Below are positions 1 to 61,753 of a stretch of DNA of 64,000 bases, one piece after another. Position 1 is the first letter of the stretch. Each line of letters begins with the position of its first letter. Source of the DNA: Gemmatimonadales bacterium (lineage in GTDB: Bacteria > Gemmatimonadota > Gemmatimonadetes > Longimicrobiales > Gaopeijiaceae); contig REED01000119.1 of assembly GCA_007695225.1 (NCBI GenBank), positions 1 through 64,000 of the forward strand, in the 5' to 3' direction. Both the position numbers and the translations under genes were made by a program. The notes below the pieces were generated by a model that saw nothing but the letters and a program-made list of their open reading frames with translations, had not been told where the DNA came from and did not search any database.

Positions 1-841
1 CCTCCTCGGCGGCGAGCCCCTGGGACTCCAGGATGGCCTGGAGGGCGATGTCCCACGGCTGGTCCCGGATCTCTGCGCTCACGTTCCCGGTGATGCCCGC
101 TCCGGGAATGATGGAGCGACCGGAGAACTCGGAGAAGGTGAAGAGGACCTCTCGAAGGGGCGTCTCGGAGAAGGAGACGGTGATCCGACGGGAAAGGTCA
201 TCGGAACGAACCCCCGCCCAGGAAGGCGCCCGGGAACGACCCACGGGGTCGCCTGCGGCCGCCACCGCCCCCGCATTCCCGTTCCCAGGGCCGAAATTGG
301 GGGCAGGCGCGGAAGCTTCGGCCCGCCAGGGCTCGAACCGGTCCCAGAGATTCTCCAGGGAGATCCGCACGTAACCCGGACCGGAAAGGACGGCGTACCC
401 CACCAGTGCCTCCATCTCCAGCGTCACGCGGACCACGTCCTCGCCCACATGGGTAGCCCGGATCTCCCGGATTCCTCCCCGGTCCAGGGCGCGAAATGCC
501 TCAGCGGCTAACTCCGAGCGGGCGCCCAGGAGGTCCACCACGATCCGGTCCGGACCCTCCATGGTGAAGTCCCGGGTCTCCACCTCACCCTCGAGCCCCA
601 GGACCACCTCCGTCCGGTCTCCAGCCGGTATGATCTCGAGTCCCGTGAGGAAGCCGGAACGAGCCGCCACCTCCGCTGCCGGCGCCGCCCCCTCGAACGC
701 TGCGACCGCTGCCACCGCCGCGGGGGCGGGCCCCACCGTGGGGCCTGACCCCGGGTCCATGACCTCTGGAGACGCTGGCGAGATCCCGGAGAGACCCACG
801 CCCACCAGCAGCGAGGTCCAGAACACCATATGTGGGGTCAT
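1..841 (-). CDS. pilQ: Type IV pilus secretin PilQ, N-terminal part (AMIN domain), truncated by window edge
   Basis: Own reverse translation from ATG at 841: MTPHMVFWTSLLVGVGLSG...FLTGLEIIPAGDRTEVVLGLEGEVETRDFTMEGPDRIVVDLLGARSEL..., AMIN-like; last gene of pilMNOPQ order; 4-bp overlap with the preceding gene; absent from the ORF track because it is open at the edge. Confidence 0.8.
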   Translation of the reverse strand, partial: MTPHMVFWTSLLVGVGLSGISPASPEVMDPGSGPTVGPAPAAVAAVAAFEGAAPAAEVAARSGFLTGLEIIPAGDRTEVVLGLEGEVETRDFTMEGPDRIVVDLLGARSELAAEAFRALDRGGIREIRATHVGEDVVRVTLEMEALVGYAVLSGPGYVRISLENLWDRFEPWRAEASAPAPNFGPGNGNAGAVAAAGDPVGRSRAPSWAGVRSDDLSRRITVSFSETPLREVLFTFSEFSGRSIIPGAGITGNVSAEIRDQPWDIALQAILESQGLAAEE

Positions 842-1473
842 GCCGAACCTCCGTTCCACCCGTTCCCGTCGGAGGCCCCGATCGTGTCCGGGGCCGCTCC
901 GCCGCCCCCGCCGCCGCCCGGAGGCGGTGCGGGCGTATCCTCTTCCGGTTGCTCCATCCCTGCGGGATCGTCCTGCTCACCCTGGGCCTCGGGCGCGGTG
1001 CGCCGCAACTCCAGGACCCGGGACTCCCTCACTCCGAATTCGTCCACCTCCACCACGATCTCCCGCTGCCGGATGGCCAGCACCCGCATGTTCCCCAGGA
1101 CATCCCCTTCCCTGACCCGCCAGTTCCGAGATCCCGCCGCCGCACCCCGGGGTCCCAACAGAGCCACCGATCCTACGCCGTCCGTGGAGAGGATCACCCC
1201 CAGCAGGACCAATCCCTCGAAGCGGGGCCCCGCGTCGTCCCCGGTGAGGGGACGGAAGGGGTTCCGCCGCTGGAAGGTGGGATACTCGAACACCTCCCGC
1301 TCGAAGATGAGCTCCACGGTGTCGGTCCGGGCGCCCGCGCCTCCGGGTGGGGGCTGCTGGGCTTCGGCGTCAGATGCCGTCATCAGTAGTAACAGGAATC
1401 CCGCGGCCGTCGCCGCCGTGGTCCAGGCCAGGAATCGGACCGGTCGCCAGGACACCACGGTGCCGGAGATCAT
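838..1473 (-). CDS. pilP: PilP-like type IV pilus assembly lipoprotein/periplasmic protein
   Basis: Position between pilO and pilQ; N-terminal hydrophobic segment, short C-terminal domain (NWRVREGDVLGNMRVLAIRQREIVVEVDEFGVRESRVLEL). Confidence 0.65.
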   Translation of the reverse strand: MISGTVVSWRPVRFLAWTTAATAAGFLLLLMTASDAEAQQPPPGGAGARTDTVELIFEREVFEYPTFQRRNPFRPLTGDDAGPRFEGLVLLGVILSTDGVGSVALLGPRGAAAGSRNWRVREGDVLGNMRVLAIRQREIVVEVDEFGVRESRVLELRRTAPEAQGEQDDPAGMEQPEEDTPAPPPGGGGGGGAAPDTIGASDGNGWNGGSA

Positions 1474-2084
1474 CGATTCCCTGCCGAGTCAAGCGAGCCG
1501 TCGGCGAGTGGGTCCGGCGTCCGGGGGGAAAGATAGGTCTCCAGCCGGAAACGGGCCCGGACCGGAGACGTCATCTCCTGACCCGATTGGCCCGTGAAGG
1601 GCTCCATCTCCAGGTCCCGGGGAGTCATGATCCGGGGAAGGGAGGCGACGATGGCGAGGAAACGTCCCACGTCGTGATACTCACCGATCACGTCCATCTC
1701 ATAGGAATCCCGGGTGTAGAATTCCCCCTCCATGGGAGGCTCGGGGCGAAGGCCGCCCAACTCGACCCCCGTGCGGAGCGCCTCCGACGAGATGGTACGA
1801 AGGAGGGTGGGGACCTCCCCGGTGGCCGGGATGAGCTCCTCCAGCCGTCCCAGGTGTCGCTCATAGACGGCAAGCCGTTCCTCCAGGTCCGAGACGCCCC
1901 GTGCCGACAGCACCTGGGCCCGTCGGTTCGAGTCATCGAGGGTCTGGAGCCGGACTTCCATGGCGCTAATCACTTCCGCACGAGGCGCGTACCAGTACTC
2001 GAAGAAGGCGTAGCCGGCGGCGATCGCCAGGATCCCCACCAGGAGGGCGGCTTGTCTGGGTCGTTCCGTGGGCAGGAGCGCCAT
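1470..2084 (-). CDS. pilO: Type IV pilus inner-membrane protein PilO
   Basis: MALLPTERPRQAALLVGILAIAAGYAFFEYWY..., single TM plus coiled coil and PilO-like fold; synteny. Confidence 0.8.
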   Translation of the reverse strand: MALLPTERPRQAALLVGILAIAAGYAFFEYWYAPRAEVISAMEVRLQTLDDSNRRAQVLSARGVSDLEERLAVYERHLGRLEELIPATGEVPTLLRTISSEALRTGVELGGLRPEPPMEGEFYTRDSYEMDVIGEYHDVGRFLAIVASLPRIMTPRDLEMEPFTGQSGQEMTSPVRARFRLETYLSPRTPDPLADGSLDSAGNR

Positions 2085-2086: not shown

Positions 2087-2842
2087 TCAGTGATCCTCCT
2101 GGTCCGCTGCAGGCCCGGACGAACCCCCGGAGCCCGGGCCGACGACGTCGTCCTGGGATTCCCACCTCTCCGCGCCTGGAATGGCCACCGAGGGCCCGAA
2201 GAGCGGGACCCGGTCCACGATGCCCGGAGGAGGGTCCTGGTATCGCGCTTCCAGAAGGAAACTGTAGATCCGGCGCTGGACCCCCGGGGATACCGTGAGC
2301 AGCACCGCGTCCACCTGGATGAGCCGCACCTCACGGAGGAAGGGCGAGGCCTCCAGGGACTCCATGAAGCTGGTGAGAGCGAAGTAGGTAGCGGAACGGC
2401 CCTCGAGCTGGAACGTGGGATGCGTCCCGGACACCACCTGCTGCAGACGGGTGATCCAGGTGAAATCCGGAACCGCCCGGCCCACTTCGTCCATGATGTG
2501 GGACCAGGTGTAGCGGGTTTCGTCGATCTCCTGGAGCACAGCCACCCGCTGGGCGATGGAATCCCGCTGCGCCAGGAGCCGCTCCGAACGGGCAATCACC
2601 TCCGCGAACCGGATGGAGTCCCGCTGCGCGACCTCGATGGCGACTTCCAGCTCCTCTGCCTCTCCAGCCACCCTGAAGAAGAGGAACGCGATGAGCCCCA
2701 GGGACATCAGACAGAGGGCACCGGCCGTCAACGCCCATCGATCCCTGGGAAACCCTGGAATCGCGGGAAGCCTAGGGGCGGAGACCCCGCGGCGGGGCGC
2801 TTTCCGCTTCCCTTTGCCAGGAAGGAGGTTGACTTCGATCAC
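2087..2842 (-). CDS. pilN: Type IV pilus assembly protein PilN
   Basis: MIEVNLLPGKGKRK start typical of PilN; one TM; synteny. Confidence 0.85.
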   Translation of the reverse strand: MIEVNLLPGKGKRKAPRRGVSAPRLPAIPGFPRDRWALTAGALCLMSLGLIAFLFFRVAGEAEELEVAIEVAQRDSIRFAEVIARSERLLAQRDSIAQRVAVLQEIDETRYTWSHIMDEVGRAVPDFTWITRLQQVVSGTHPTFQLEGRSATYFALTSFMESLEASPFLREVRLIQVDAVLLTVSPGVQRRIYSFLLEARYQDPPPGIVDRVPLFGPSVAIPGAERWESQDDVVGPGSGGSSGPAADQEDH

Positions 2843-2888: not shown

Positions 2889-3932
2889 TCATGGTTTCCT
2901 CAGCGCAAGACCGAGGGGGAGGAGGAGCATGACCCCCGCCTCCTCCAGGTCCGGCGACTGGAAGGCGTCCGGCGCCACCGGGATCCGCTGGAAGGGGTTC
3001 ACCAGGCGTACCTCCGCGGAGAGGCGCTCGGCCAGGGCCTCCGGGAGCCCCCGGATTCGGGCCGCTCCGCCACTCAGGTAGACCGACCCCAAGCTCTCTC
3101 CCATCTGTTGCGCCATCAGAAAGGCGGCCGCACGCTCGACCCCCATGGCCACCTCGTCCGCCCCGGCCTGCACGTACCGCAGGAACTGGGGGTGATTCTC
3201 CCGCCCCTGCAGGACCGCCTCCGCACCTTCCGCCGTCAGTCCCTGCTCCCGCTGAAGGTCCTCCCGGATCCGCCGCGTACCGAAGGGGATGTCCCGCGTC
3301 AGGGTGGGGACTCCGTCCTCCATGATGTTCACGCTCGTCATCTCGTGTCCGACGTTCACCAACGCCACCACGCCCGTCATGGCTTCCGGGTGGTTGCGCT
3401 CGAGGGCATTGTGGAGGGCGAAGGCGTCCACGTCGATGAGGACCGGAGAGAGCGTGGCCTCCTGCATCAGGGAGACGGTGTTGTCCACCAACTCCCTCTT
3501 GGCGGCCACCAGCAGGACTTCCATCTGGAGGCCATCCTCATCCGGGTCCAGGATCTGGAAATCCAGTACGACACTCTTGATGTCGAAGGGAACGTGCTGC
3601 TCAGCCTCCCAACGGATGACTTCCCGGGCGTCGGCCTCCTTCATCCGGTCCATGGAGATCTTCTTCACGATGACGTCATGGCCACCCACGGCCGTAACCA
3701 CGTCCCTGGACCGGATCCCGCTCTCCCCCCAGAGATCACGGATGGTGTCCGCCACCAGGCCCGGATCCATGATCTCCCCTTCCACGATGGCATCGGGGAG
3801 GAGGGCGCGCATGGCGATGCGGACCACCTCGGGCTGATCCCCGGAGTGGTCCACTTCCACCAGCTTCACGAACCCGCTGCCCACATCGAGTCCGACGGTG
3901 TTTTTCGATCGCCCGAAAAGGCCCATTCCCAT
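2889..3932 (-). CDS. pilM: Type IV pilus assembly ATPase-like protein PilM
   Basis: KNTVGLDVGSGFVKLVEVDHS... actin-like PilM; synteny. Confidence 0.9.
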   Translation of the reverse strand: MGMGLFGRSKNTVGLDVGSGFVKLVEVDHSGDQPEVVRIAMRALLPDAIVEGEIMDPGLVADTIRDLWGESGIRSRDVVTAVGGHDVIVKKISMDRMKEADAREVIRWEAEQHVPFDIKSVVLDFQILDPDEDGLQMEVLLVAAKRELVDNTVSLMQEATLSPVLIDVDAFALHNALERNHPEAMTGVVALVNVGHEMTSVNIMEDGVPTLTRDIPFGTRRIREDLQREQGLTAEGAEAVLQGRENHPQFLRYVQAGADEVAMGVERAAAFLMAQQMGESLGSVYLSGGAARIRGLPEALAERLSAEVRLVNPFQRIPVAPDAFQSPDLEEAGVMLLLPLGLALRKP

Positions 3933-4045: not shown

Positions 4046-5308
4046 TCAGAAGGAGCCAGCCGAGAGGTCCGCCCAGCCCCGCGTCGCGATGGGGTTCAGG
4101 GGAAGGCCCCCCGATGCCCCGGAGATCGCCCTAGAGAGCGCGCATGACGAATAGGTGATGAGGGCATTCCCCGAGATCAACTGTTCGTCGTTGCTCGACT
4201 CGATCTCCGCCCCTTCGCTGGTGACCGACCCGAAGATACCGGTGCCCCCGTTGTTCGTGAAGCGCCCCTTCACGTACATGGGACCGGCCCAGTTGAAATT
4301 TCCGTTCAGGTGGAGGTTTCCCTCCACCAGGAGGATCCCCTGCCCGGAGGAGTTGGCGTTGATCTGGAATCGGTCGTGGCCCTCGGGCACGATTACGTGG
4401 ATGATGGGAAAGTGGTCCTTGCACGCTTCGGCGGCGGTGCTGTTGATTCCGGGTCCCGAGGACCGGGGCGCCCCCCAGTTCAGAGGGTCCCCGGTATTGC
4501 ATTCCCCACCCGAAAGCGAAGGCTCGATCTTGTGGGGACCCGAGGCCGTGATGGTCTTGTCGGCCAGGGAGGTTAGGCGCTCCCAGGTCTCCGCACTGAA
4601 CACCTCCATCTGCTCGTCGACGAGGGCGTCGTCCCGCCCCACCGGGTCCACCCCCGACGGCGCAAAGGTCTTGCTGTTCCCGCCCAGGCTCACCGTGGCG
4701 TCCTCATTGACGAGGAGGGCCGGGCGCCCCCCGGAGGCAGGAGGGCAGCTATTGGCTCCCTGGTTCATGAACCAGCCGCTTCCCCCTCCATTGGTGTCCC
4801 GCCCGTCCACGGTGGAGTTCCCGCTCATGGCCATCTGGTCCTGGGTCGTCACCGCAGCCTGGGACTGGGCGAGGTCCAGGGTCCCCCCGCGGGCGAGTTG
4901 GCTCAGGGTGCGGCTGGCGCCGGCCAGCCGTCCGCCCTGGGTGATCCGGCCGGTGCTCTCGATGAGGTAGAGGAGATCATCCACCCGGGTGATGGTGACG
5001 TCCCATTCGCCGTCCCCCTGCTGGACCTGACAGTCAGCGCAGGCCGAGGTCTCCTCCCAGACGGCGAGGCCGGCTTGGGCCGGGATCCAACCCGCCAGGA
5101 CCTCGTTCAGCCCCGACTCCGCCAGGTAGAAGGCCTGGGTGGCTCGCTCGGTGGACTGCCCGATGCGGGCTTCCTGGCCGGCCAGGAAGAACCCGCCCGT
5201 GATCAGCACGGCCACCACCATCAGCGCCAGGATGGCGGCGGGGAGCGCAAATCCCTGCCGGCGGCGGATCGGCCCGAACGCATCGCTGGGTTTTTCTTGA
5301 CTCCTCAT
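4046..5308 (-). CDS. PilX-like prepilin, E5-lacking, with C-terminal beta-rich/polymer-forming-like region (cassette B)
   Basis: RRQGFALPAAILALMVVAVLITGGFFLAGQEARIG...FYLAESGLNEVLAGW; C-terminal GILLVEGNLHLNGNFNWAGPMYVKGRFTNNGGTGIFG. Confidence 0.7.
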   Translation of the reverse strand: MRSQEKPSDAFGPIRRRQGFALPAAILALMVVAVLITGGFFLAGQEARIGQSTERATQAFYLAESGLNEVLAGWIPAQAGLAVWEETSACADCQVQQGDGEWDVTITRVDDLLYLIESTGRITQGGRLAGASRTLSQLARGGTLDLAQSQAAVTTQDQMAMSGNSTVDGRDTNGGGSGWFMNQGANSCPPASGGRPALLVNEDATVSLGGNSKTFAPSGVDPVGRDDALVDEQMEVFSAETWERLTSLADKTITASGPHKIEPSLSGGECNTGDPLNWGAPRSSGPGINSTAAEACKDHFPIIHVIVPEGHDRFQINANSSGQGILLVEGNLHLNGNFNWAGPMYVKGRFTNNGGTGIFGSVTSEGAEIESSNDEQLISGNALITYSSCALSRAISGASGGLPLNPIATRGWADLSAGSF

Positions 5309-5441
5309 GGTCCTTCCTCCACTGCGTGTTCGTGCGTTGATTTCCGGTCCGCCGCCCCACCCTCCCCGCCCATTCCTCCGGACCTGTGCCCCGGTTCATT
5401 CCCCGGTCCATTCCGCCGGTGAATCCTTCCGATGCATCCCT

Positions 5442-6314
5442 TCAGTTCCGCATCTGGACCACCACCGAGAGGGAATCCTGGACCTGCTGTCCCGTCGGGC
5501 CCCGGGCTCCGGAAAGGGTCTGGACCGTGATCCGGACGGATCGTACATCGGCGGGAACCGCCGTGGCCGCCCCCGCGCCGTCCAGGAACTCGAACACGAC
5601 GCCGCCCGTGGGCCGGACTGGTCCCACCATGGGTACGGCAACGTCCACGGCCTGTCCGTCTCCATCCAGCTCGGTCCGTCCCAGGTAGGTGAGGCCGTCC
5701 TGGGCCTGCATCGTCCCGTACTCGAACACTTCGAAGCTCCGGAGGAGGGCCCCCGACCGGACGGCCGCCAATGCGGGCGAAGGCGAGAGGTTCTGCAACC
5801 GGACCACCTGGGCGGGGCGTTGCGGCTCCCCCTGGGCAGCCCCCACCGGACAGATGTCCGTGTCCTGGATCGAGGCAATGGTCCCCTGGGCCCAAACGTC
5901 GTCTGCAGGCGTCTCGGGTGCACCTTCCACGAAAAGGAAGACGTGTTCGCCCGCGGAGAAATCCCGGCCCAGCGGAGCCACCGTCAGATCGGTGCCGTCC
6001 CAATCGCACCCGAGTCCGGCCGCACGGTAGGCCCGGAAGCTTACCCGATCCGCCTCCATGGCCAGGAGATCTCCCCCCGCGGGAGAGACCTGCCGCAGTT
6101 CGGCGACCATCAGGTCGAGTCCGAACCGGACCGTCTGCTGCCCCTGGATCTGCTGCTGCTGGACGGTATAGACCTGCTGGTTGGAGATCAGGACCTGGAA
6201 GATCGAGATCATGAGGACCGAGGCCACCACCACCGACACCAGGAGCTCCACGAGGGTGAAGCCCCGCCGGTCCAGGATCTCTCCGCGGTGGAGCCCGCGC
6301 CTGGGCCCGTTCAT
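5442..6314 (-). CDS. PilW-like minor prepilin (cassette B)
   Basis: RRGFTLVELLVSVVVASVLMISIFQVLISNQQVY class III prepilin motif; PilW length. Confidence 0.75.
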   Translation of the reverse strand: MNGPRRGLHRGEILDRRGFTLVELLVSVVVASVLMISIFQVLISNQQVYTVQQQQIQGQQTVRFGLDLMVAELRQVSPAGGDLLAMEADRVSFRAYRAAGLGCDWDGTDLTVAPLGRDFSAGEHVFLFVEGAPETPADDVWAQGTIASIQDTDICPVGAAQGEPQRPAQVVRLQNLSPSPALAAVRSGALLRSFEVFEYGTMQAQDGLTYLGRTELDGDGQAVDVAVPMVGPVRPTGGVVFEFLDGAGAATAVPADVRSVRITVQTLSGARGPTGQQVQDSLSVVVQMRN

Positions 6315-6697
6315 CGTCGAAGCACCCGGTACTGGACGGTATCGGCCACCGTCGTGGAGATGAGCGGCTGCCCGCCGGAGACCCTCACGACACCAGGGCC
6401 GGTCACCACCACCTGCATGAGTCGGGACCGACTGTCGCCTTCGATCTCGGACCAGGAGAGGGTAAACGGGCCATCGTCCACCTCGCCCGAGGTGATCTGG
6501 GTGAAGGGCGTCGCCTTCATTTGCTCAATTGCGGTCTGCAGAGCTGCGGAACGTGCCGTCTCGATTCGCGCCCTCTCCACCGAGCCGATCATCCACCCGG
6601 TGCCTGCCGCCAGCCCAAGAAGCCCCACGGTGAGGACGAGCATCGCCACCACCACCTCCACCAGTGAGAGCCCGGCCCGTCCACTTGGTATACTCAT
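6311..6697 (-). CDS. PilV-like minor prepilin (cassette B)
   Basis: GRAGLSLVEVVVAMLVLTVGLLGLAAGTGWMIGSVERARIETARSAALQTA. Confidence 0.75.
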   Translation of the reverse strand: MSIPSGRAGLSLVEVVVAMLVLTVGLLGLAAGTGWMIGSVERARIETARSAALQTAIEQMKATPFTQITSGEVDDGPFTLSWSEIEGDSRSRLMQVVVTGPGVVRVSGGQPLISTTVADTVQYRVLRR

Positions 6698-6698
6698 A

Positions 6699-7199
6699 TC
6701 AGATCGTCCGGGCCTGGCCGAGCGGGAGGAGGCGAATGGATCGACTCCGGGTCCCCATATCGAAACGAATGGTGGTCTCCGTCGTGACGGCGTTGGCGCA
6801 GCCCAGGTTGGCGACTCCGCGGGGGGTGAAGCAGAGCACCGCGATGCCCTGCCCAGTCACCCGGATGAGGTCCACGGCGAAGGCCTCGCGGAAGTCCATC
6901 TCGTTGAGGATGTCCACCTGTCCGTCCCGGGTTGTCTCGATCCGGACCCGATCCTGAGCCGGATCGATGATGAATCGCACCTCCACCCCTCGCTCCACCG
7001 CGAAAGCCCGGGCCTGCGCATGGAGGCTCAGGAAGTTGTCGTGGGCCGATCGGGTGTTGAGCTGCCCCGCCATCCGTGAGAAGGAGTTCACCACAACCCC
7101 CGCCAGCACCGAGGTGATGACCACCACGATCACCAGCTCCAGGAGGGTGAAGCCTTTCCGGCTCCGAAGAGCCTGCGGAGGAGAATGGAGCATCTTCAT
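6699..7199 (-). CDS. FimT/GspH-like minor prepilin (cassette B)
   Basis: Start re-assigned to MKMLHSPPQALRSRKGFTLLELVIVVVITSVLAGVVVNSF; GspH/FimT pattern RAFAVERGVEVRF. Confidence 0.75.
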   Translation of the reverse strand: MKMLHSPPQALRSRKGFTLLELVIVVVITSVLAGVVVNSFSRMAGQLNTRSAHDNFLSLHAQARAFAVERGVEVRFIIDPAQDRVRIETTRDGQVDILNEMDFREAFAVDLIRVTGQGIAVLCFTPRGVANLGCANAVTTETTIRFDMGTRSRSIRLLPLGQARTI

Positions 7200-7392
7200 G
7201 CCAGGATGGGGAGCCAGAACTGTGCCACTCCGGCGAGGGGCTCCCGCTGGCGACTTATGGCCCCGATTCAACAATAGTTGGGGCCGATAACGACCTTCCG
7301 TGGACAGAAATCCGAACTCATTTCCGGATTCTGGAACTCTTTTCGCCCGACCAACGCGTCCCAGGGGGCCGAGTGCCCGGCGGTTGCGCCCC

Positions 7393-7448
7393 GGATGCTG
7401 CCCCCCGGATGCTACCCCAAGGACGCTGTCCCCCGGATGCTGCCCCAA
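7393..7448. repeat. Four tandem 14-bp units (GGATGCTGCCCCCC-like) between the two prepilin cassettes
   Basis: ggatgctgcccccc / ggatgctaccccaa / ggacgctgtccccc / ggatgctgccccaa. Confidence 0.85.
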
Positions 7449-7666
7449 GGATTCCGCGACACGGAACCAGAGCCCCCTTGAGGCTCCTGGATGCCCCTCG
7501 GGCTGCATTCACGCATTTGTTGAGGGAATCTACCCCCGAAGGCCGGAGCGGTGCCAGCGAGGGCCGGATGAAGGTGGCCGGATCAGGGTCCTGGACGGGG
7601 GGCCGCCGGAGGGGCTCGAAGGAGCCCCCTCCGTTGATCCGACGGTCTCCCGGGCGGGGTGCCCGC

Positions 7667-8500
7667 TCAGTGCCGTCCGAGACGCATCCCGCCGGGAACG
7701 GGGAGAGGCGCTGCGAGAAGGGTCTGGGCCAGAATGGCGTGGGACGCCGCCGAATCGGCGAGGAAGCCGCTTTCCCCCTGAAGGAGGAGGGCTCCGTGGG
7801 TCCGGGCCGCACCCTGGAGGGTGACGCCTCCACCCAGGAGGATGTCCCCCCTGGCCAGGATGATCCCCGCAAGGGGACCGTTTCCCGACAACTCCGCCCC
7901 TCCCGGGGCGACGATGGTGATGCCGCCGGCCGGATCAGGGAGCAGGACGCCCCCCGGTGCGTGGACCCGATGACCACTGTCGAGTTGAAGGGCCCCTCCC
8001 TCGTCCGGAAGGAGGATCACATCCTCCATCTCCAGGACACGGAGGTGTGCAAGGAGGTCGTCCAGGGAAAGCGGACCCAGAACCGGCGCGCCCTCCGGAG
8101 ACCGAGCCCACCGACCAGCTGTCCCCCCCGGCTCGGGGTGCCACGCCATCCGGAACCCTCGCCGTGCCCCGGCCATGACCGTGGTGGGGGCCTGGAGGAG
8201 GAGGTACCCTGAGTCCAGGACCGTCACCTCCTCGCCCCGGGCCGGAAGGGGAGCGGCAGGGGGGCTTGCCGCCGCCATGGCTTCCAGGAGCGCCGCGTCC
8301 TGTCGAGCCGCCACGAGCTGGCCCTGGGCCATGACGAAGGCTGAGAACGAGAGGGCCAGGAAGGCCGGCAGCAGAAGGATGGCCAGCGGAAGAATGAATC
8401 CCTCCGGCCTCCGACGAGCGGAGGGCTGTACCCCGGCTTCCTCCCCGTGCGCCAACGCCTCAGGGGAACACCTTCCGGCTACGAGGTCAGGGCGGGTCAT
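7667..8500 (-). CDS. PilX-like prepilin, E5-lacking, with C-terminal beta-rich region (cassette A)
   Basis: PEGFILPLAILLLPAFLALSFSAFVMAQGQLVAARQ; C-terminal GIILARGDILLGGGVTLQGAARTHGALLLQGESGF resembles the cassette B paralog; start MTRPDLV. Confidence 0.6.
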   Translation of the reverse strand: MTRPDLVAGRCSPEALAHGEEAGVQPSARRRPEGFILPLAILLLPAFLALSFSAFVMAQGQLVAARQDAALLEAMAAASPPAAPLPARGEEVTVLDSGYLLLQAPTTVMAGARRGFRMAWHPEPGGTAGRWARSPEGAPVLGPLSLDDLLAHLRVLEMEDVILLPDEGGALQLDSGHRVHAPGGVLLPDPAGGITIVAPGGAELSGNGPLAGIILARGDILLGGGVTLQGAARTHGALLLQGESGFLADSAASHAILAQTLLAAPLPVPGGMRLGRH

Positions 8501-9303
8501 GGAACCTCCGGGAGGAACGGCGATGGGTCCCACGGAGGACCGGGGGGTCCACTCCACGGGATCTTCCAGCGCACCTCACCCCCCGGTTGGAGTTCCAATA
8601 TCACGTCCAACCCGCCGCCCTCCGAAGCTTCGAAGGCGCTTGCCGGACCCACTCGTTCCGGGGTCAGGGGCTGGCGCCCCTCGTCTCCCCTTCGGTAGCG
8701 AAAGGCCCGATCCTCCAGCGAATAGCGCCCCCGCTCGAAGTACCGGATCAGGATCGGCCCCGAGACCCGTTCACTGAGACGCCATTGGGCGACCTGTCCC
8801 TCCAGCGGCGCAAGGCACGCGCCACCTGCGGACGAGACCGCCTCCAGAGCGGCGAGGCGCCAGCCACCCTCGGCTTCGAGCACCAGGACGGAGTCCCGGT
8901 CAGGATCCGGCGCACGGTGCCCCCGCCACGTCACCCTCCCCTCCCGACTCCCTGGTTCCCACTCGCAGGGTAGAGCGATTCCCCGGAAGGCCCGGAGCCA
9001 GAGCGCCCGGTCTGTGCCCTCCTCCCGGTCCCAGTCCCGCCCCCGTAGACCGGCCCCCAGTTCCTCGTGGAGGACGGTCCAGGTGGTGCGAAGCGTCTCC
9101 ACGCTCTCCTCCCGGGACACCAGGTCGTCCACCACCCGCGCACTTTGGTGGAGTAGGACCACCGATCCACCCAGGAGGAGGCTTGCCGTGAAGGTCCCCA
9201 CCAGGAGTTCCGCCAACGTCCATCCCCCCTGAGCGGAGTCCCGCGTCGATACCGGCGCCGACCTCTGAGCCGAGTCCCGAGCCGACCCCCGAGCGTGCAT
9301 CAT
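8497..9303 (-). CDS. PilW/GspJ-like minor prepilin (cassette A)
   Basis: AQGGWTLAELLVGTFTASLLLGGSVVLLHQSARV. Confidence 0.7.
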   Translation of the reverse strand: MMHARGSARDSAQRSAPVSTRDSAQGGWTLAELLVGTFTASLLLGGSVVLLHQSARVVDDLVSREESVETLRTTWTVLHEELGAGLRGRDWDREEGTDRALWLRAFRGIALPCEWEPGSREGRVTWRGHRAPDPDRDSVLVLEAEGGWRLAALEAVSSAGGACLAPLEGQVAQWRLSERVSGPILIRYFERGRYSLEDRAFRYRRGDEGRQPLTPERVGPASAFEASEGGGLDVILELQPGGEVRWKIPWSGPPGPPWDPSPFLPEVP

Positions 9304-9713
9304 GGGCCAGTCTCCTCGCGGGGAGGAACGGGGCTTGGGCGATCCCAGGGAACGCGGATAAAGCGAGCCATCTCGGGGGCTCCCTCCGCTCTCCGCTGAA
9401 CGACCCGGAGGCCATTGTCGTCCCACCACCACTCCAGTTCCAGAGAAGGTCTCCGGGCGCGGCCGTCGGCCATCCCGGGAACGAAGAGCGCCTCCCCTGC
9501 AACGACGGGAGCCCCCTGGGCCAGGATGTCGGCCCTCTCCATGACGCGAACGGCTTCTGCCAGGAGGACGACGGCTGCGGACAGCCCCACCCCCAGGAGC
9601 ACCATGGCCAGAAGAACCTCGACGAGGAGGAATCCACCCTGGGACGAACCGCCGCGCAGACCGCAGCCCCGTGGGTGACGGCGAGGAGCCGCCTCAGCGC
9701 CGGACACGGCCAT
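9300..9713 (-). CDS. PilV/GspI-like minor prepilin (cassette A)
   Basis: SQGGFLLVEVLLAMVLLGVGLSAAVVLLAEAVRV; start re-assigned to MAVSGAEAAPRR. Confidence 0.7.
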   Translation of the reverse strand: MAVSGAEAAPRRHPRGCGLRGGSSQGGFLLVEVLLAMVLLGVGLSAAVVLLAEAVRVMERADILAQGAPVVAGEALFVPGMADGRARRPSLELEWWWDDNGLRVVQRRAEGAPEMARFIRVPWDRPSPVPPREETGP

Positions 9714-10116
9714 GCGAGGAGAGGACCAGGGGCACCCGGGCCCGCCCCCGCTCAAGGTAGAGGGTGGTGGACGCGGCCCGCCCGACCCCGAGGGGGCCGA
9801 AGACCAGGGTGGCTTCAGTCCGGGACCCTCCAATGCGGAGCTGGATTCCCCGCCCCCGGAGATCCACCCGGTGCGCCACCGAATCCCCAGCCAGGATGAG
9901 GGTCCCGCCGGCGCCTTCATTGAGGCGAACCCGGGCTTCGCCGTGAATCCGGGCCTCGGCCCGGGCCCGATACACGAGCCCCGCAATCTCTTCCCGAGCC
10001 GTACGGCACTCAAGAAGGTCCACCAGTCCACGACCGACCCCACCTCCCATCATGGCCAGGACACCCATGAAGGAGAGGACAACCGACAGTTCCAGAAGCG
10101 TGAATCCACGAGTCAT
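9694..10116 (-). CDS. FimT/GspH-like minor prepilin (cassette A)
   Basis: MTRGFTLLELSVVLSFMGVLAMMGGGVGRGLVDLLECRTAREEIAGLVYRARAEARIHGEARVRL. Confidence 0.7.
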   Translation of the reverse strand: MTRGFTLLELSVVLSFMGVLAMMGGGVGRGLVDLLECRTAREEIAGLVYRARAEARIHGEARVRLNEGAGGTLILAGDSVAHRVDLRGRGIQLRIGGSRTEATLVFGPLGVGRAASTTLYLERGRARVPLVLSSHGRVRR

Positions 10117-10244: not shown

Positions 10245-11651
10245 CTATTCCAACCCGTAGTCGCGGATCTTGTACCGGAGGGCCCGATCGCTGAGCTCCA
10301 GAAGCTCGGCGGCCCGGGTACGGTTGCCTTCCGTCCGATGGAGCGCCTTCTGGATGAGATCCCGCTCTAGCGCCGCAGAGCGACGCTTCACCGACAGGTC
10401 TTCTTCCTCCGACCCTTCGCCGGGTGTGCTTTCAGCTGAAAGGCGGATGAAGGACGGCCCCTCTCCGTCCGATGTGCCCCCGACCTCGCCCGCGACGTTG
10501 GTCGGAAGGTCCTCCACGCCGAGCCAGTCTCCCTCCGCAAGGACCAGAGCGCGCTCCAGCACGTTCTCCAACTCCCGGACGTTTCCAGGCCATGGATAGG
10601 CGGCCAGGGCCCTCAGGGCGAGGGGATCCACACCGTCCACCTCGATCCCAAGGCGATCCCCATGGCGCCTCAGGAAGTGGCGCACCAAGAGGGGGAGGTC
10701 CTCGGGTCGATCCTTCAGGGCCGGGATCCGCAGGGTCACCACGGCCAGCCGGTAGTAGAGGTCCTCGCGGAACCGGCCCCCTTCAACCTCTTCCTTCAGG
10801 TCCCGGTTCGTCGCGGCGACGATCCGGGCGTCCGCGGGCCGGCTCTCGGACTCGCCGACCCGTCGGACCTCCCCTTCCTGGAGTACGCGGAGGAGCTTCA
10901 CCTGGAGGAAGTCCGGAAGCTCTCCCACCTCGTCCAGGAAGAGGGTTCCGCCCCCGGCGGCTTCGAAGAGCCCCTGCCGGTCCCGGTCGGCTCCGGTGAA
11001 GGCGCCCCGCACGTGTCCGAAGAACTCCGATTCCAGGAGATTCTCGGGGATGGCCCCACAGTTCACCGCTACGAAGGGGCCCTGGGAGCGGGCCGACTCG
11101 TTGTGGATGAGGCGAGCCATGAGTTCCTTTCCGGTCCCCGTGGCCCCCTGCAGCAGGATGGTGGTGGGGTGCCGGGCGACCTTTCGGGCCGTCTCCATGA
11201 CCCGCAGCATCTCCGGGGCTGCAGCAACAATATCGCCGAAGCGCCGGCCGGCCTTCACCTCTTCCCGGAGACGCCCCACCTCCCGGCGGAGGGACTCTCG
11301 TTCCTCGGCCTTCCGCACGGTGAGGAGGACCTCGTCGGCCCCGAAGGGCTTGGGGAGGTAGTCGTAGGCCCCCGCCTGCATGGCCTCCACCGCCAGGTCC
11401 ATGCTCCCATAGGCCGTCATGACGATGACCGGCGCCTCCCCACCGGCCTTCCGATACGCTTCGAGGAACGCCAGCCCGTTCATCCCCGGCATCCGATAGT
11501 CCACCAGGACCAGGTCCGGGCCGAACCCCTCCACGAGTTCCAGCGCTTCCGCCCCTCCGGGTGCCAGTTTCGGGAGGTGTCCCCCATCCTGGAGGATCAT
11601 GGAGAGGGACTGCCGGAGTCCCCGATCGTCGTCCACCACAAGGATCCTCAT
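10245..11651 (-). CDS. Sigma54-dependent (NtrC-family) response regulator
   Basis: REC domain, AAA+ with GATGTGKE and GAFTGA loop, C-terminal Fis-type HTH. Confidence 0.93.
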   Translation of the reverse strand: MRILVVDDDRGLRQSLSMILQDGGHLPKLAPGGAEALELVEGFGPDLVLVDYRMPGMNGLAFLEAYRKAGGEAPVIVMTAYGSMDLAVEAMQAGAYDYLPKPFGADEVLLTVRKAEERESLRREVGRLREEVKAGRRFGDIVAAAPEMLRVMETARKVARHPTTILLQGATGTGKELMARLIHNESARSQGPFVAVNCGAIPENLLESEFFGHVRGAFTGADRDRQGLFEAAGGGTLFLDEVGELPDFLQVKLLRVLQEGEVRRVGESESRPADARIVAATNRDLKEEVEGGRFREDLYYRLAVVTLRIPALKDRPEDLPLLVRHFLRRHGDRLGIEVDGVDPLALRALAAYPWPGNVRELENVLERALVLAEGDWLGVEDLPTNVAGEVGGTSDGEGPSFIRLSAESTPGEGSEEEDLSVKRRSAALERDLIQKALHRTEGNRTRAAELLELSDRALRYKIRDYGLE

Positions 11652-13018
11652 GCTTCCTCCTCCTCAATCCCCGGAAGCCGGACCCGGAAGCGGGCGCCGC
11701 CACCCTCCCGGTTCTCCGCCTCGATGGTTCCAGCCAGTTCGCCGACGATCCGCGCGGTCAGGGCGAGCCCCATCCCGATTCCCTCACCGGGCTCCCTGGA
11801 GGTGAAGAAAGGGTCGAAGACCCGGGGGAGCACCTCCTCGGGGATCCCGGTGCCCCGATCCTCCACCTCGATGATGACGTCGCGCCCTCCAGCGTCAGCG
11901 GGGACCGGCGCACGGATCCGGAGGAGGTCACCCAACCGCCGCCGATGGGAGTAGTCCAGGGCAGGAGGATCATCAACCCGCCGGGCCACCGGCTCCCGAT
12001 CCGCCGGCTCGGTCCGGAGGACCACCCTCAACTGGGGAGATGCCTCGTTCGCCGTGGCCTGACGAGCGTTCTGCAAGAGATTCATGAGGATGCGCTCCAC
12101 GTGCTGCGAGTGGGCCCGGATCTGGGGGAGCCCCACCTCCGCCTCCAGGTGGACCCAGTCCTCCTCCAGTTCCTCCCGCCCCACGAGAAGATCGATGACC
12201 CGGCCCACCGCGTCGGTGGGGTCCACCCGGGGGAGGTCGCCGGTCCGGACCGTGGGACGACCGAAGTCCAAGATGTGGCGGATGATGGAGTCGATACGCT
12301 CCACCTCCGACCTGGCAGATCCCAGGATTTCCCGTACCTGCTCCGGATCCTCTGCCCGGTACCGGATCACATCCAGGTAGCCCTGGAGTGCGCCCAGGGG
12401 GTTTCCGATCTCGTGGGCCATTCCGGCAGCCAGGGTCCCCACCGAGGCCAGCCGGGCGGCCCGAACCAGTTCGGCGGTGGTCTCGGTGAGCTCCCGGTTG
12501 GTCTGGTTCAGGGACTGGACGTTGGTGGCCAGCAGCCCCTGCTCCCGGATGAGCCGACCCGCCAGGGAGTTCACCGCGTCCACGATCCGATCCAGCTCCT
12601 CCAGCGGTTCGGAGGGGATCCGGTGGTCCAGCTCCCCATCGGCGATCCGCTCCGCATGGTCCACGATCCGCTCCACCGGCCGGAGGACCGTCCGGTCCAT
12701 GAGGGAACGCAGGTAGAGGAAGAGGATGATCAGCTCCGCCAGGACGATGAGGCTGAGGGTGATGAGGGCCGCGAAGGGACTGGGCGCCAGGGGGATGACG
12801 ATGCCCGCGGCCGCCACCGCCACCAGGATCGCCGCCAGGAAGAGGACGGAGGTGGAGAGAAGGAGCTCCCTGCGGATGGAGGCGGGAGAGGGCGTGCCGT
12901 CCGGATCGGAGGAGGGGGAATCGGCCAAATTGAAACTCCGCTGCCCGGCCTGGACCGTTGGGGTTGGAACCTCTGGATTCAGGAGCCTCCGTCTCGGGAG
13001 GAGTCCCTCAGAAAGTAC
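11648..13018 (-). CDS. Sensor histidine kinase (HAMP-HisKA-HATPase), partner of the preceding RR
   Basis: MAHEIGNPLGALQGYLDVI H-box and DRGTGIPEEVLPRVFDPFFTSREPGEGIGMGL ATPase motifs; N-terminal start uncertain (track ORF starts at 13063 and overlaps the upstream pilin; GTG starts are possible). Confidence 0.9.
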   Translation of the reverse strand, partial: VLSEGLLPRRRLLNPEVPTPTVQAGQRSFNLADSPSSDPDGTPSPASIRRELLLSTSVLFLAAILVAVAAAGIVIPLAPSPFAALITLSLIVLAELIILFLYLRSLMDRTVLRPVERIVDHAERIADGELDHRIPSEPLEELDRIVDAVNSLAGRLIREQGLLATNVQSLNQTNRELTETTAELVRAARLASVGTLAAGMAHEIGNPLGALQGYLDVIRYRAEDPEQVREILGSARSEVERIDSIIRHILDFGRPTVRTGDLPRVDPTDAVGRVIDLLVGREELEEDWVHLEAEVGLPQIRAHSQHVERILMNLLQNARQATANEASPQLRVVLRTEPADREPVARRVDDPPALDYSHRRRLGDLLRIRAPVPADAGGRDVIIEVEDRGTGIPEEVLPRVFDPFFTSREPGEGIGMGLALTARIVGELAGTIEAENREGGGARFRVRLPGIEEEEA

Positions 13019-13406
13019 AGCGGATCTCGACGGCAGACGATGCCGGTGCCACCGCGGCGGCATCGGCGGTCCCGTAGAACACGCCGCAGGTCTCCCGGGG
13101 AAGGGAGCGATGAACCGCCCGGGCCGCCCATCCAGTGAGATCCCCTTCGGTGAGGGTGAGAGTCACGTTGGGTGAGGCCGAGATGTCCAGCTCCTGCAGC
13201 GTCTCGGCGTACCCGTCCTGCATCCGCCAGTGGGCTTCCTGGCTGGTGGAGAGGTTCCGGAGGTCGGAGATGAGCGAGGCCCTGAAGGCGCCCACCCGGG
13301 TCTCGGTGTAGCGGGGCACGGCGATGGCGGCGAGGAGACCGATGATCACGACGACCACCAGCAATTCCATGAGGGTGAAGCCGGAGGCGTTCCTGAGATT
13401 GTCCAT
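13008..13406 (-). CDS. Type IV pilin-like protein (second major-type pilin)
   Basis: MDNLRNASGFTLMELLVVVVIIGLLAAIAVPRYTETRVGAFRASLISDLRNLSTSQEAHW; C-terminal Cys pair. Confidence 0.85.
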   Translation of the reverse strand: MDNLRNASGFTLMELLVVVVIIGLLAAIAVPRYTETRVGAFRASLISDLRNLSTSQEAHWRMQDGYAETLQELDISASPNVTLTLTEGDLTGWAARAVHRSLPRETCGVFYGTADAAAVAPASSAVEIRCTF

Positions 13407-13445
13407 GAAGCCTCCGGGCAGAGAGGACTGGGGCGGAGACGTCGA

Positions 13446-13513: not shown

Positions 13514-13933
13514 TCAGTCGCTATCCTGCCAAGTGCAGGCAATCTCGCCCGCAGACGCCTCGTCGTCCACGGAGTTCTCGGCCCCATCCCCAACCGTGAC
13601 TGCGCAGCTTTCTTCGTCCAGCGCGGTGTGTGTCCCCACCGCGAGGAACCCCTGATCGGAATCGGAAACCGTAATAGTAACATCCACACCCTGGCTCGCC
13701 CGGAAGAGGTTGGCGCCCTCGAGGTCGCCAAGGGTAGCGTACTCATAGTTGTTCGCCGGATCCGCATACCACTGCTCCTGCACCGTCTGCAGGTTCCGGA
13801 GGTCCGAGACCACCGCCGACTGGAAGGCCCGCTCCCGGGTGGCGCCGAAACGCGGAATCGCGATGGCGGCCAGGATGCCGATGATCACGACCACGATGAG
13901 CAGCTCGATGAGAGTAAAACCCTTTTTGTTCAT
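13514..13933 (-). CDS. pilA: Type IV major pilin PilA
   Basis: MNKKGFTLIELLIVVVIIGILAAIAIPRFGATRERAFQSAVVSDLRNLQTVQEQWY; canonical class III signal and E5; C-terminal D-loop Cys pair. Confidence 0.9.
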   Translation of the reverse strand: MNKKGFTLIELLIVVVIIGILAAIAIPRFGATRERAFQSAVVSDLRNLQTVQEQWYADPANNYEYATLGDLEGANLFRASQGVDVTITVSDSDQGFLAVGTHTALDEESCAVTVGDGAENSVDDEASAGEIACTWQDSD

Positions 13934-14011
13934 TGTCCTGTCTCCTCTTCTTCGGTTCGAAGGGGGTGGAAGTGCGCGGGCCATTTACCCGCTGCGACTG
14001 GCCCCAAAGAA

Positions 14012-14027
14012 AGCAGAGAGTGTGCCA
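14012..14027 (-). promoter_or_regulatory. Sigma54 (-24/-12) promoter of pilA
   Basis: Minus strand TGGCAC-ACTCT-CTGCT; matches TGGCAC-N5-TTGCW with correct GG/GC spacing, ~70 bp upstream of the pilA start codon. Confidence 0.7.
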
Positions 14028-15050: not shown

Positions 15051-16430
15051 TCAGCCTCCCGCGTTCAGTCCGTAGCGGGCAATCTTCCGGTAGAGGGTGG
15101 AGGGGTCGATCCCCAGCACCTCGGCGGCTCGGCTCTTGTTCCCCCCTTCGGCATTCAGCACCCACTCGATGTAGGCCCGCTCAATGATCTCCATGGGGGG
15201 ATTCGGGGGTGGATCGGCGGAGACGAGCTGAACCTGGGGCTTCTCCCGGACTCGATCCGGAAGGGCCTCCGCCGGGATCTCCCCCTTCTTTGCGGCAAGG
15301 ACGGCGGCCCGCTCCAGGGCGTTCTCCAGTTCCCGCACATTTCCGGGCCAATCGTAGGCCAGGAGGGCCTCCAGGGCCTCTTCCGAAAGCTCCCGGGGCC
15401 CCTTCTCCCCCTCGGCGGTCCGCTCCAGGAAGAACTTCGCCAGAAGCGGGATGTCCTCCCGCCGGTCCCGGAGAGCGGGGAGCTTCAGGTTGATGACGTT
15501 CAGGCGGTAGTAGAGATCGGAGCGGAACTCTCCTTTGCGGATCTGCTCGTCCAGGTCCCGGTTGGTGGCGGCGATGATCCGGGCGTCCATGGGCACCGCC
15601 TGGGTGGCGCCCACCGGGATCACCTCTCGTTCCTGGAGCGCCCGGAGGAGCTTCACCTGGGTCTTGGGGGAGGTCTCCCCCACCTCGTCCAGGAGGAAGG
15701 TGCCGCCCCCCGCCGCCACCAGCAGCCCCGTCTTGTCCTTCACCGCCCCGGTGAAGCTTCCCTTCACGTGGCCGAAGAGTTCGCTCTCCAGGAGGGACTC
15801 GGGAAGGGCCCCGCAATTGATGGAGAAGAAGGGCCCCTCGCTCCGGTGGGAGAGGTCGTGGATATAACGGGCCATGACCTCTTTTCCCGTTCCGCTCTCC
15901 CCGGTGATGAGGATGGTGGAATCGGTGGGGGCCACGGTCCGGGCCATGGTGAGGGCCTCCTGGAAGGCGGAGGCCTTCCCGATGGGGTCCACCCGGCTCC
16001 CCCCACCCCGCCTCCGGATCTCCTTCTTGAGCTCCCTATTCTCCACCTTGAGGGCCCGGGTCTCCACCGCCCGGGAGCAGATGGCCAGGAGTTCGTCATT
16101 GGAGAAGGGCTTCTGGATGTAGTAGAAGGCCCCCTGGTTCACCGCCTGCACCGCCGTCTGGAGGGAGGCCTGCGCCGTCATGAGGATGACGGGAAGTTCA
16201 GGGTCCACCTCCCGGGCTCGGGCCAGGACCTCGAGTCCGGTGGTTCCGGGCATCCGGATGTCGGAGACCACGAGATCCGGCTTCCCGGCTTCAAGGGCCT
16301 CCAGCCCCGCCTTCCCTCCCACCGCGGGAATCACCTCATACCCGGCGCCCCGAAAGAGGATGGAGAGGGTCTGGACGATGCTCTGCTCATCGTCCACCAG
16401 GAGAATCCGGATGGGGTTGGCGGTGGTCAT
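15051..16430 (-). CDS. pilR: Sigma54-dependent response regulator, PilR-like
   Basis: Start re-assigned to MTTANPIRILLVDDEQS; AAA+ with GESGTGKE and GSFTGA; Fis-type HTH; paired with PilS-like kinase. Confidence 0.85.
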   Translation of the reverse strand: MTTANPIRILLVDDEQSIVQTLSILFRGAGYEVIPAVGGKAGLEALEAGKPDLVVSDIRMPGTTGLEVLARAREVDPELPVILMTAQASLQTAVQAVNQGAFYYIQKPFSNDELLAICSRAVETRALKVENRELKKEIRRRGGGSRVDPIGKASAFQEALTMARTVAPTDSTILITGESGTGKEVMARYIHDLSHRSEGPFFSINCGALPESLLESELFGHVKGSFTGAVKDKTGLLVAAGGGTFLLDEVGETSPKTQVKLLRALQEREVIPVGATQAVPMDARIIAATNRDLDEQIRKGEFRSDLYYRLNVINLKLPALRDRREDIPLLAKFFLERTAEGEKGPRELSEEALEALLAYDWPGNVRELENALERAAVLAAKKGEIPAEALPDRVREKPQVQLVSADPPPNPPMEIIERAYIEWVLNAEGGNKSRAAEVLGIDPSTLYRKIARYGLNAGG

Positions 16431-18100
16431 GATGCCGAAAGGGGAGGGATGGGAAGGAAAAGCTGGAATTCGGTGCCGCCTCGAGCGGGACGCTCCACGA
16501 GGACGGCACCCTGGTGAGCCTGGGCCGTCCGGTGCACCACCGCAAGCCCCAGCCCCGTCCCTCCGGGCCGGGTGGTGTAGAAGGGATCGAAAATCCGGTT
16601 CACGTCCTCGGGGGGGATGCCGGGACCCTGGTCCCGGACCCGGATTCGCACAGCCCCCTGGAGCTCCACCCCCGCGGGAAGGGAACGGCCCCGGAAATCC
16701 TCTACGGCAAAGAGGACTTCGCCCCCCTGGGGAGAGAACTGGGTGGCATTCAGGAGGAGGTTGAAAAGGGCTCTGTGGAGGAGGTCGGCGTCGGCCGGCA
16801 CCTCCAGTCCATCCTCGGGCACCTCCAGGAGGTACAGCACCTGTCGGGCGTGGCTCTCGGGGTGCTGCTCCATGAGGGTGAGGCACTCCCGAGCGACCTG
16901 GGTCAGGTCCAGGGGTTCCACCCGCTCCAGCCCCACCCGGGAGTAGTCCAGGAAGTCGGTGAGGAGGCGGGAGAGACGATCCGATTCCCGGACCACCATC
17001 CGCTTCAGGATCTCCCGATCGTCGTCAGCCAGGGAGGGGCTCGTGAACTGCTCCACCGCACTTCGGATCGAGGCAAGGGGATTCTTGATCTCGTGGGCCA
17101 TGGCCGCCGAGAGCTCCGCCACCGCCTCCAACCGTTCAGTGCGCCGATTCATGGCATCCGCCCGTTCCAGGTCGGTGATGTCCTGGAAGATGGCCGTCAC
17201 CGCCCGGGGCTCGTCAGGTTCGTCCCGGAGGAAGAGGGAGACCCCCAGGACCAGGTCCTCTCCATCCCGTTCGGCCTCGGCTCGGAGCCGCACCCGGGAC
17301 TCCGCCCCCTCCAGGGTGAGCCGAACGTCCTGGGCCAGCTCCGGGGAGATCCGGGCCAATTCGCCCAGGACGGGACGCCCCTCCCAGTCCTCACGCTTCA
17401 GCCCCAGGAAGGACTCGGCAGCACGGTTCATGTAGATGAGATGGCCATCCTCATCCACCGTGAGGACCCCGGTGCTGATGGTAGCCAGGATCTCCCCCGT
17501 ATCCAGCCTCAGGCGCCGCAACTCGGACCGGGCCTCCCCAAGGGCCGCGCCCGTCTTGCGGAGCCGGTCCACCAGCATCCCGGTGGCGACACCCACCAGT
17601 GCGAAGAGCCCGAGCTGGAGGAGGACGGCGCCGCTCAGGGGCTGGGTGTGCCCCCAGAAGATGACGGCAAAGTAGAGAATGGCGGCCAGGAGGCTCATGA
17701 ACACGCCCCCGGCCAGGGGAAGGAGAAGCGCCCCCTCGGAGATCACCAGGATATAGAGCCAGGCGAAGGTGCTCTCCCCGCCCCCGGTGATGTGGACCAC
17801 GCCACTCACCAGGAGGGCGTCGAAGGCCACTTGGTACACCAAGAGCGCCCGACCCGGGGGCCGCCCCAGGACCTCCGTCCACCATGCGCTGGCACCGGTG
17901 ACCACCAGGGCCCCAATGAGCATGATGGTGGCCAGGTAGGTCTGCTCGGGAAGGGCCTCCCTCCATACGACCAGCGCCCCGCTCAGGACGCCCAGCACCA
18001 GGACTACCCGAGCCAGGTACACCCACCGCAGCACATTCTCCGGTGAGAGGGCCACGACCACCTCACGGGTACCGCGGGTACGGGACACGGGGCGGCTCAC
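16427..18100 (-). CDS. pilS: PilS-like multi-TM PAS sensor histidine kinase
   Basis: Several N-terminal TM helices, PAS, MAHEIKNPLASIRSAVEQFTS H-box, HATPase; 4-bp overlap with RR. Confidence 0.85.
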   Translation of the reverse strand: MSRPVSRTRGTREVVVALSPENVLRWVYLARVVLVLGVLSGALVVWREALPEQTYLATIMLIGALVVTGASAWWTEVLGRPPGRALLVYQVAFDALLVSGVVHITGGGESTFAWLYILVISEGALLLPLAGGVFMSLLAAILYFAVIFWGHTQPLSGAVLLQLGLFALVGVATGMLVDRLRKTGAALGEARSELRRLRLDTGEILATISTGVLTVDEDGHLIYMNRAAESFLGLKREDWEGRPVLGELARISPELAQDVRLTLEGAESRVRLRAEAERDGEDLVLGVSLFLRDEPDEPRAVTAIFQDITDLERADAMNRRTERLEAVAELSAAMAHEIKNPLASIRSAVEQFTSPSLADDDREILKRMVVRESDRLSRLLTDFLDYSRVGLERVEPLDLTQVARECLTLMEQHPESHARQVLYLLEVPEDGLEVPADADLLHRALFNLLLNATQFSPQGGEVLFAVEDFRGRSLPAGVELQGAVRIRVRDQGPGIPPEDVNRIFDPFYTTRPGGTGLGLAVVHRTAQAHQGAVLVERPARGGTEFQLFLPIPPLSAS

Positions 18101-61737: not shown

Positions 61738-61753
61738 TGGCATACCGGTTGCT
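61738..61753 (+). promoter_or_regulatory. Sigma54 promoter of the glycine-zipper lipoprotein gene
   Basis: TGGCAT-ACCGG-TTGCT, essentially consensus. Confidence 0.75.

Follow-up and report, generated by a model that had tools for sequence, protein, structure and literature searches.

One open question about type IV pili is how a single machine can serve adhesion, twitching, and DNA uptake. It is raised by a locus of a soil- and water-dwelling Gemmatimonadota bacterium in which the genes for such a machine are accompanied by two complete sets of minor pilin genes. The locus lies in the first 64,000 nt of contig REED01000119.1 (C6 in our numbering; assembly GCA_007695225.1), the stretch of DNA that was analyzed and that we call the window. 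On the minus strand, the gene order is pilA2, pilA1, pilS, pilR, A1 to A4, B1 to B4, and pilM-N-O-P-Q, with the contig ending at base 1 inside pilQ. The eight prepilin genes between pilSR and pilMNOPQ form two four-gene sets, cassettes A and B, each of which comprises FimT-, PilV-, PilW-, and PilX-like members (Table 1). An initial annotation made from the sequence of the window had recognized two tandem cassettes of identical order, and all eight open reading frames (ORFs) are indeed found on the minus strand where it had placed them. As set out below, the best reading of this arrangement is that the cassettes encode alternative, differently regulated tip complexes for one pilus machine, an interpretation that we consider reasonably probable.

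Two complete and matching sets of minor pilins

All eight proteins carry class III prepilin cleavage sites (Table 1). Both cassettes hold three prepilins with Glu5 and a fourth member that lacks this residue, and each set thereby follows the GspHIJ plus GspK, or FimT-PilV-PilW-PilX, rule. This order and signature are those of a type IVa pilus (T4aP) minor-pilin operon, and both in the window and in relatives the cassettes are associated with the T4aP machine genes pilMNOPQ, pilSR, and pilA. Searches of Pfam and NCBIfam gave generic N_methyl, GspH/FimT, PilV, and PilX_N matches, strong ones in cassette B and weak ones in cassette A; as single sequences, A3 and A4 had no match in these collections. 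A3 contains a motif, ...GGRQPLTPE, that is conserved in relatives.

A pairwise profile comparison of A and B members had been proposed in the initial annotation. At full length, the corresponding slots match with E values of 6e-25 (slot 1), 4e-14 (slot 2), 5e-25 (slot 3), and 1e-53 (slot 4). Matches persist after removal of the N-terminal helix for A1-B1 (1e-14), A3-B3 (3e-14), and A4-B4 (9e-44), and all off-diagonal pairs are non-significant in this helix-free comparison. Slots 1, 3, and 4 are homologous beyond the helix, whereas A2-B2 becomes non-significant once the helix is removed, and this pairing rests on the shared prepilin helix and on gene order. Searches of the assembly, on which all of our genome-wide statements depend, found one secretin in the host genome. 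These slot-wise matches and the single secretin bear out the earlier view that two paralogous, diverged minor-pilin sets stand beside one PilMNOPQ machine.

The host assembly is a Gemmatimonadota metagenome-assembled genome (MAG) of 4.18 Mb that is 98% complete and 5% contaminated. It also contains a diverged second copy of the locus on two short contigs: C131 (locus L001) carries A3, A4, B1, B2, and B3, which are 48-63% identical to their counterparts in the window, and C113 (L044) carries B4 (48%) and PilM (92%). This copy probably comes from a related contaminating strain, or it may be a genuine second locus of the same genome. Between the window and the diverged copy, dN/dS is 0.28 for A3, 0.40 for A4, 0.33-0.51 for the B genes, and 0.06 for PilM, these ratios being rough because dS of the close pair is near saturation. 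Divergence is far faster in the two cassettes than in PilM, yet it proceeds under purifying selection. A uniformly faster evolution of A than of B was rejected, because slot identities go both ways and the dN/dS values of the close pair are similar.

Cassettes A and B belong to separate lineages

A contig search for relatives with B3 alone returned nothing, and a PilM alignment was used instead; PilM was found in 74 of the 98 related genomes examined. Its closest relatives are in Gemmatimonadota MAGs, many of them from sediments and soils. Where loci were read through from pilR to pilM, 4+4 prepilins are present in 19 (the window among them), and others have only one set there. Because the same eight-gene order of A and B recurs in at least 18 other Gemmatimonadota genomes, and because A3 and A4 are under purifying selection, the tandem is neither chance nor artifact.

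In a tree of all four slots combined, one branch separates all A sets and all single sets of what we call A-only loci from all B sets and from the lone sets found in other families of Gemmatimonadota. Support for this branch is 100/100 in a careful tree of a subset of loci. No A set groups with the B set of its own genome, and no sign of gene conversion between the two cassettes is visible. The tree indicates an ancient separation of A and B into two lineages. From their placement, B is the phylum-wide lineage, common to all Gemmatimonadota families sampled, and A is a second lineage that occurs in the host family and a sister family and that predates their divergence.

Cassette A was intact at every one of its loci that was examined, and it is kept in ~40 genomes of the host family. 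In a genome-wide search with B4, a B set turned up elsewhere in most genomes with A-only loci, and the idea that these loci had lost B was dropped for this reason. The initial annotation had named degradation of one cassette in relatives as an outcome that would count against it; what was found is that B is often absent at pilM and usually intact elsewhere. Complete B sets lie away from pilM in G040, G003, G010, and G020, and a nearly complete one is located at a contig end in G041. In G006, A is accompanied by five B-type sets at unlinked places (L145-L149), the one on L149 with partial coverage. Most remote B sets group with locus-B sets in the tree. Some, those of L147, L148, L152, L154, and L163, belong to a further lineage together with the second sets of L014, L020, and L026 and those of a third family, f3.

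Some genomes seem to manage with one set. Whole-genome searches gave no B-level match in G004 and G045, which appear to be A-only. In G057, pilS-pilR is followed directly by B and no A was found in the search, and this genome appears to be B-only. Natural genomes of both kinds suggest that A or B is dispensable, as would be expected if each set suffices for pili, and they are consistent with such sufficiency.

Other departures from the common arrangement were also encountered. G035 has A, then an extra B4, then B. An additional ~1-3.5 kb lies between cassettes A and B in L090, L094, and L097, and in front of them in L101. An extra slot-4 (PilX/ComZ-like) gene is present beside a cassette at L157:9192-10490, at L158:2544-5203, and in L115 and L121, as if tip proteins had been exchanged or added singly. 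Family f3 (L021, L023, L025, L028-L031, L033) has a single set with a second FimT-like gene ahead of it.

Cassette B shares a promoter type with pilA

Regions spanning 250 bp upstream plus 40 bp were scanned with a sigma-54 consensus whose weights were set by hand, and sites of at least 10 bits were counted. Such sites precede B1 at 12 of 23 loci, against 0.45 expected from shuffling, and the first pilA at 15 of 33 loci (1.5 expected). Remote B sets have them in four of 12 cases (0.45 expected). None was found before A1 at 30 loci (0/19 in tandem loci, 0.45 expected; 0/11 in A-only loci, 0.4 expected), before pilM at 23 loci (0.5 expected), before 69 internal genes (1.55 expected), or before the first genes of 13 single sets in other families. 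Fisher's test for B1 versus A1 gives 5e-6, a value that is not a true probability because the loci are related. Cassette B shares the switch type of pilA, and cassette A is without it.

The window has an exact match to the pattern TGGCAYRNNNNTKGCW in front of B1, whose ATG start at 7199 is correct, and a match with one mismatch in front of pilA2 (Table 1); the whole 64 kb holds five matches versus 1.46 expected. The diverged copy L001 has kept the B1 site, 13 nt before the ATG. The host genome encodes rpoN, and its PilR carries the GAFTGA motif. These sequence features make it probable that PilSR and sigma-54 control B jointly with pilA, and that A is under different control. More sigma-54-like sites are found near gene starts at 54210-54225 (minus strand), 60853-60868 (plus), and 61738-61753 (plus). 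Two of these genes encode apparent lipoproteins, and the genes behind the three sites possibly belong to the same regulon.

Slot-4 proteins resemble ComZ

A C-terminal core (NWGDP..PC..GQG-L--DGDL) is common to the fourth members of the two sets. Single slot-4 proteins match Ice_binding, pAdhesive_15, and DUF7305 weakly, and the PilX_N match of B4 is seen in seven of 22 relatives. The A4 profile matches ice-binding beta-solenoids (7dc5, with an E value of 3.3e-6). AlphaFold2 models of A4 and B4 have predicted local distance difference test (pLDDT) scores of 80.9 and 78, respectively. In a Foldseek search, the best match of the B4 model is Thermus ComZ (6qvi; E 1.7e-6, probability 1.00), and ice-binding proteins rank after it. 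The identity in this alignment is 14%, the global template modeling (TM) score is 0.23, and the relative placement of the domains is not reproduced; the B4 profile has no match among PDB sequences at E <= 1. Foldseek matches of A4 to metallo-beta-lactamase were spurious (TM ~0.13).

A fold of the ComZ type, a pseudopilin joined to an ice-binding-like solenoid, is indicated for B4 by Foldseek and for A4 by its profile. Because sequence homology to ComZ was not detected, these modeled proteins are best described as ComZ-like rather than as a ComZ. ComZ itself is a pseudopilin with an ice-binding-like solenoid that has been proposed to reside at the pilus tip and that binds DNA (PMC6561018).

There is no PilY1-sized gene in any cassette, and the operons are not of the PilY1-bearing Myxococcus/Pseudomonas type. 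A search of the 98 genomes for PF05567 (PilY1) found none, but the control genomes gave no match either, so absence is not proven. PilY1 homologs have been reported in some Gemmatimonadota (PMC13190605).

Proposed alternative tips on one pilus machine

In the model that we propose, each cassette would supply the cell's single type IVa pilus machine with one complete minor-pilin complex for priming and for the tip. The FimT-, PilV-, and PilW-like pilins would link the fiber to the Glu5-less ComZ-like pilin, whose beta-solenoid would be displayed at the tip toward its putative ligands. Because cassette B has a pilA-like sigma-54-type promoter, PilSR and RpoN probably switch it on together with pilA. 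Cassette A, which adjoins pilSR and is without such a promoter, would be used under different conditions. The cell could then load two different, interchangeable tips onto the same fiber, each under its own conditions. More than one complete set and a single secretin, the combination that characterizes a shared-machine system of the Myxococcus xanthus kind, are both present.

Several points weigh against this proposal, for which the support comes from sequence and models. The promoter comparison used a hand-weighted scan and related loci, and its Fisher value must be read accordingly. Three of the 12 B1 sites (L007, L009, L096) are without the GC of the -12 element, and the B1 site of the window ends 12 nt before the ATG, which would yield a nearly leaderless transcript. 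The bodies of A2 and B2 lack profile support for homology, ComZ and B4 match by fold and not by sequence, the Foldseek search with A4 gave nothing convincing, and the PilY1 negative is uncontrolled.

The initial annotation had left two options, alternative tip complexes or two pilus types sharing one machine. In the latter, each cassette would prime a different major pilin, PilA1 or PilA2, in the manner of the wide and narrow pili of Thermus, which assembles two pilus types (PMC7203116). The two pilA genes of the window suit this option. However, pilA number does not track cassette number: L006 has A and B with one pilA, L010 and L063 have two pilA genes without B, and L018 has one set and three pilA genes. 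A coupling of the two numbers was therefore rejected, and a two-fiber model is weakened to the point of being quite unlikely, leaving the alternative-tip half of the earlier suggestion as the better one. The accompanying premise that one minor-pilin set is the usual type IV pilus arrangement is sound in general, but M. xanthus has three clusters (PMC7541494) and Xylella has two sets (PMC9956873). A far more improbable view holds that cassette A is a decaying duplicate or part of a type II secretion system (T2SS). Although the A proteins score poorly against curated families, the cassette is intact and under purifying selection, and this view is already contradicted. Neither cassette has a GspD secretin and Gsp operon of its own, and the host genome has no N_methyl prepilins outside the locus and its diverged copy, and hence no separate pseudopilin locus. 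The closest relatives of A are the B slots; a clustering of A with the GspHIJK proteins of a T2SS, which the initial annotation had said would speak against it, was not seen, and a T2SS origin was rejected.

Both sets might instead contribute to one pilus, either because A and B subunits mix or because A is a universal primer to which B adds an adhesive or DNA-binding cap. The adjacency of A and B in many genomes and the presence of B somewhere in most genomes with A fit such a joint pilus. It is nevertheless unlikely, given that A-only and B-only genomes exist, that each set has its own full FimT-PilV-PilW-PilX complement including a Glu5-less tip member, and that A and B have different promoter types. 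As a special case of the alternative-tip reading, one set would serve natural transformation, with a tip acting as a DNA receptor as proposed for ComZ, and the other would serve adhesion or twitching. This specialization would accord with the ComZ-like appearance of the slot-4 proteins, with DNA binding by ComZ (PMC6561018), with the presence of ComEC in the host genome, and with the division of paralogous Xylella minor pilins between twitching and competence (PMC9956873). We regard it as rather doubtful, since a solenoid alone is not predictive of a ligand (ice-binding-type solenoids are also adhesive) and ComEC is also present in most control genomes. Alternative tips might also be part of a broader scheme, in which the pili of a Gemmatimonadota family are without PilY1 and carry interchangeable ComZ-like solenoid tips from a private A and one to five portable B-type cassettes, and sigma-54 and PilR select the B tip with the major pilin. 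We advance this scheme tentatively, as a genuine possibility.

Features of the locus and its surroundings

Positions of the cassettes, the promoter sites, and the neighboring genes are collected in Table 1. Just upstream of the pilin genes, window positions 15051-18100 encode a second NtrB/NtrC-type sensor-regulator pair, such that two pairs of this kind flank pilA, and this arrangement is kept in relatives. Five T2SSE-family ATPases score above the cut-off in the host genome. Two are adjacent on C161, as expected for pilB/pilT, and others are located at C127:10782-11846 and on C108 and C105.

Table 1. Features of the pilin locus in the window (a slash marks the prepilin cleavage site)
Feature	Position	Strand	Evidence or remark
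A1, FimT/GspH-like prepilin, cassette A slot 1	9694..10116	-	G/FTLLE; TIGR02532 and weak GspH matches
A2, PilV/GspI-like prepilin, cassette A slot 2	9300..9713	-	G/FLLVE; weak TIGR02523 PilV match; start codon uncertain
A3, PilW/GspJ-like prepilin, cassette A slot 3	8497..9303	-	G/WTLAE; profile match to B3 slot
A4, PilX/GspK/ComZ-like prepilin without Glu5, predicted C-terminal beta-solenoid, cassette A slot 4	7667..8500	-	G/FILPL; profile match to B4 slot
B1, FimT/GspH-like prepilin, cassette B slot 1	6699..7199	-	G/FTLLE; PF12019 GspH 21.3 bits; N_methyl
B2, PilV/GspI-like prepilin, cassette B slot 2	6311..6697	-	G/LSLVE; TIGR02523 PilV 1.2e-8
B3, PilW/GspJ-like prepilin, cassette B slot 3	5442..6314	-	G/FTLVE; N_methyl 4.5e-7; gspJ 2.6e-4
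B4, PilX/GspK/ComZ-like prepilin without Glu5, predicted beta-solenoid, cassette B slot 4	4046..5308	-	G/FALPA; PilX_N 8e-4; model resembles ComZ
Sigma-54-like promoter site preceding cassette B, TGGCACAGTTCTGGCT	7212..7227	-	Consensus scan and pattern search
Sigma-54-like site TGGCACACTCTCTGCT, in front of pilA2	14012..14027	-	Consensus scan and pattern search
pilM, actin-like	2889..3932	-	Matched in 74/98 relatives
pilN	2087-2842	-	ORF; order recurs beside pilM in relatives
pilO	1470-2084	-	ORF; order recurs beside pilM in relatives
pilP	838-1473	-	ORF; order recurs beside pilM in relatives
pilQ, N-terminal part (contig end)	2-859	-	Assigned from position and conserved order in relatives
pilR, NtrC-type regulator, GAFTGA sigma-54 contact motif	10245..11651	-	Sequence
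pilS, sensor kinase	11648..13063	-	ORF; beside pilR in relatives too
pilA1, major-type pilin	13008..13409	-	N_methyl 1.4e-7
pilA2, major-type pilin	13514..13939	-	N_methyl 1.1e-9

Known systems and biological implications

The principle that several tip sets can serve one machine is already known. The closest working model is M. xanthus, which also has several complete FimU-PilV-PilW-PilX sets on one pilus machine; two of its three minor-pilin clusters are each sufficient for piliation (PMC7541494), and two clusters are differentially regulated by an NtrC-like regulator (PMC9109919). Its clusters each hold pilY1, which encodes a tip adhesin, whereas here the slot-4 pilin itself is predicted to bear the beta-solenoid and two of the sets follow each other directly next to pilM. 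Thermus thermophilus ComZ, a neighbor of PilA2, is likewise a pseudopilin-type slot-4 pilin with an ice-binding-like solenoid encoded among minor pilin genes (PMC6561018), but its solenoid is larger (~380 residues), it has no detectable sequence match to B4, and one locus is described there as opposed to two or more sets here. Xylella fastidiosa has two minor-pilin sets (pilE/V/W/X, FimT, PilY1) for one pilus system, and its paralogs divide twitching and competence between them (PMC9956873), although its sets include PilY1 and sit in two different regions. The GspHIJK proteins of type II systems share the four-slot logic and the Glu5-less fourth member, whereas here the cassettes are embedded in pilSR-pilMNOPQ and the genome has neither a secretin of a T2SS nor a pseudopilin locus apart from them and the diverged copy. 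In the open-licence literature searched, we did not find a tandem of two ancient lineages, a promoter asymmetry of this kind, solenoid slot-4 pilins without pilY1 in the cassette, or a spread of B-type sets in Gemmatimonadota.

Multi-set tips have been known from a few members of the Proteobacteria and Myxococcota, whose sets include PilY1. The present locus adds another phylum, with an old and stable split into two sets, different promoter types, a predicted solenoid tip pilin, and no pilY1 gene in the cassettes. With natural one-set genomes and the promoter split, whether each set suffices and how the choice of tip is regulated can both be put to a direct test. If the broader scheme with portable B-type cassettes is true, this choice would be a regulated and expandable trait.

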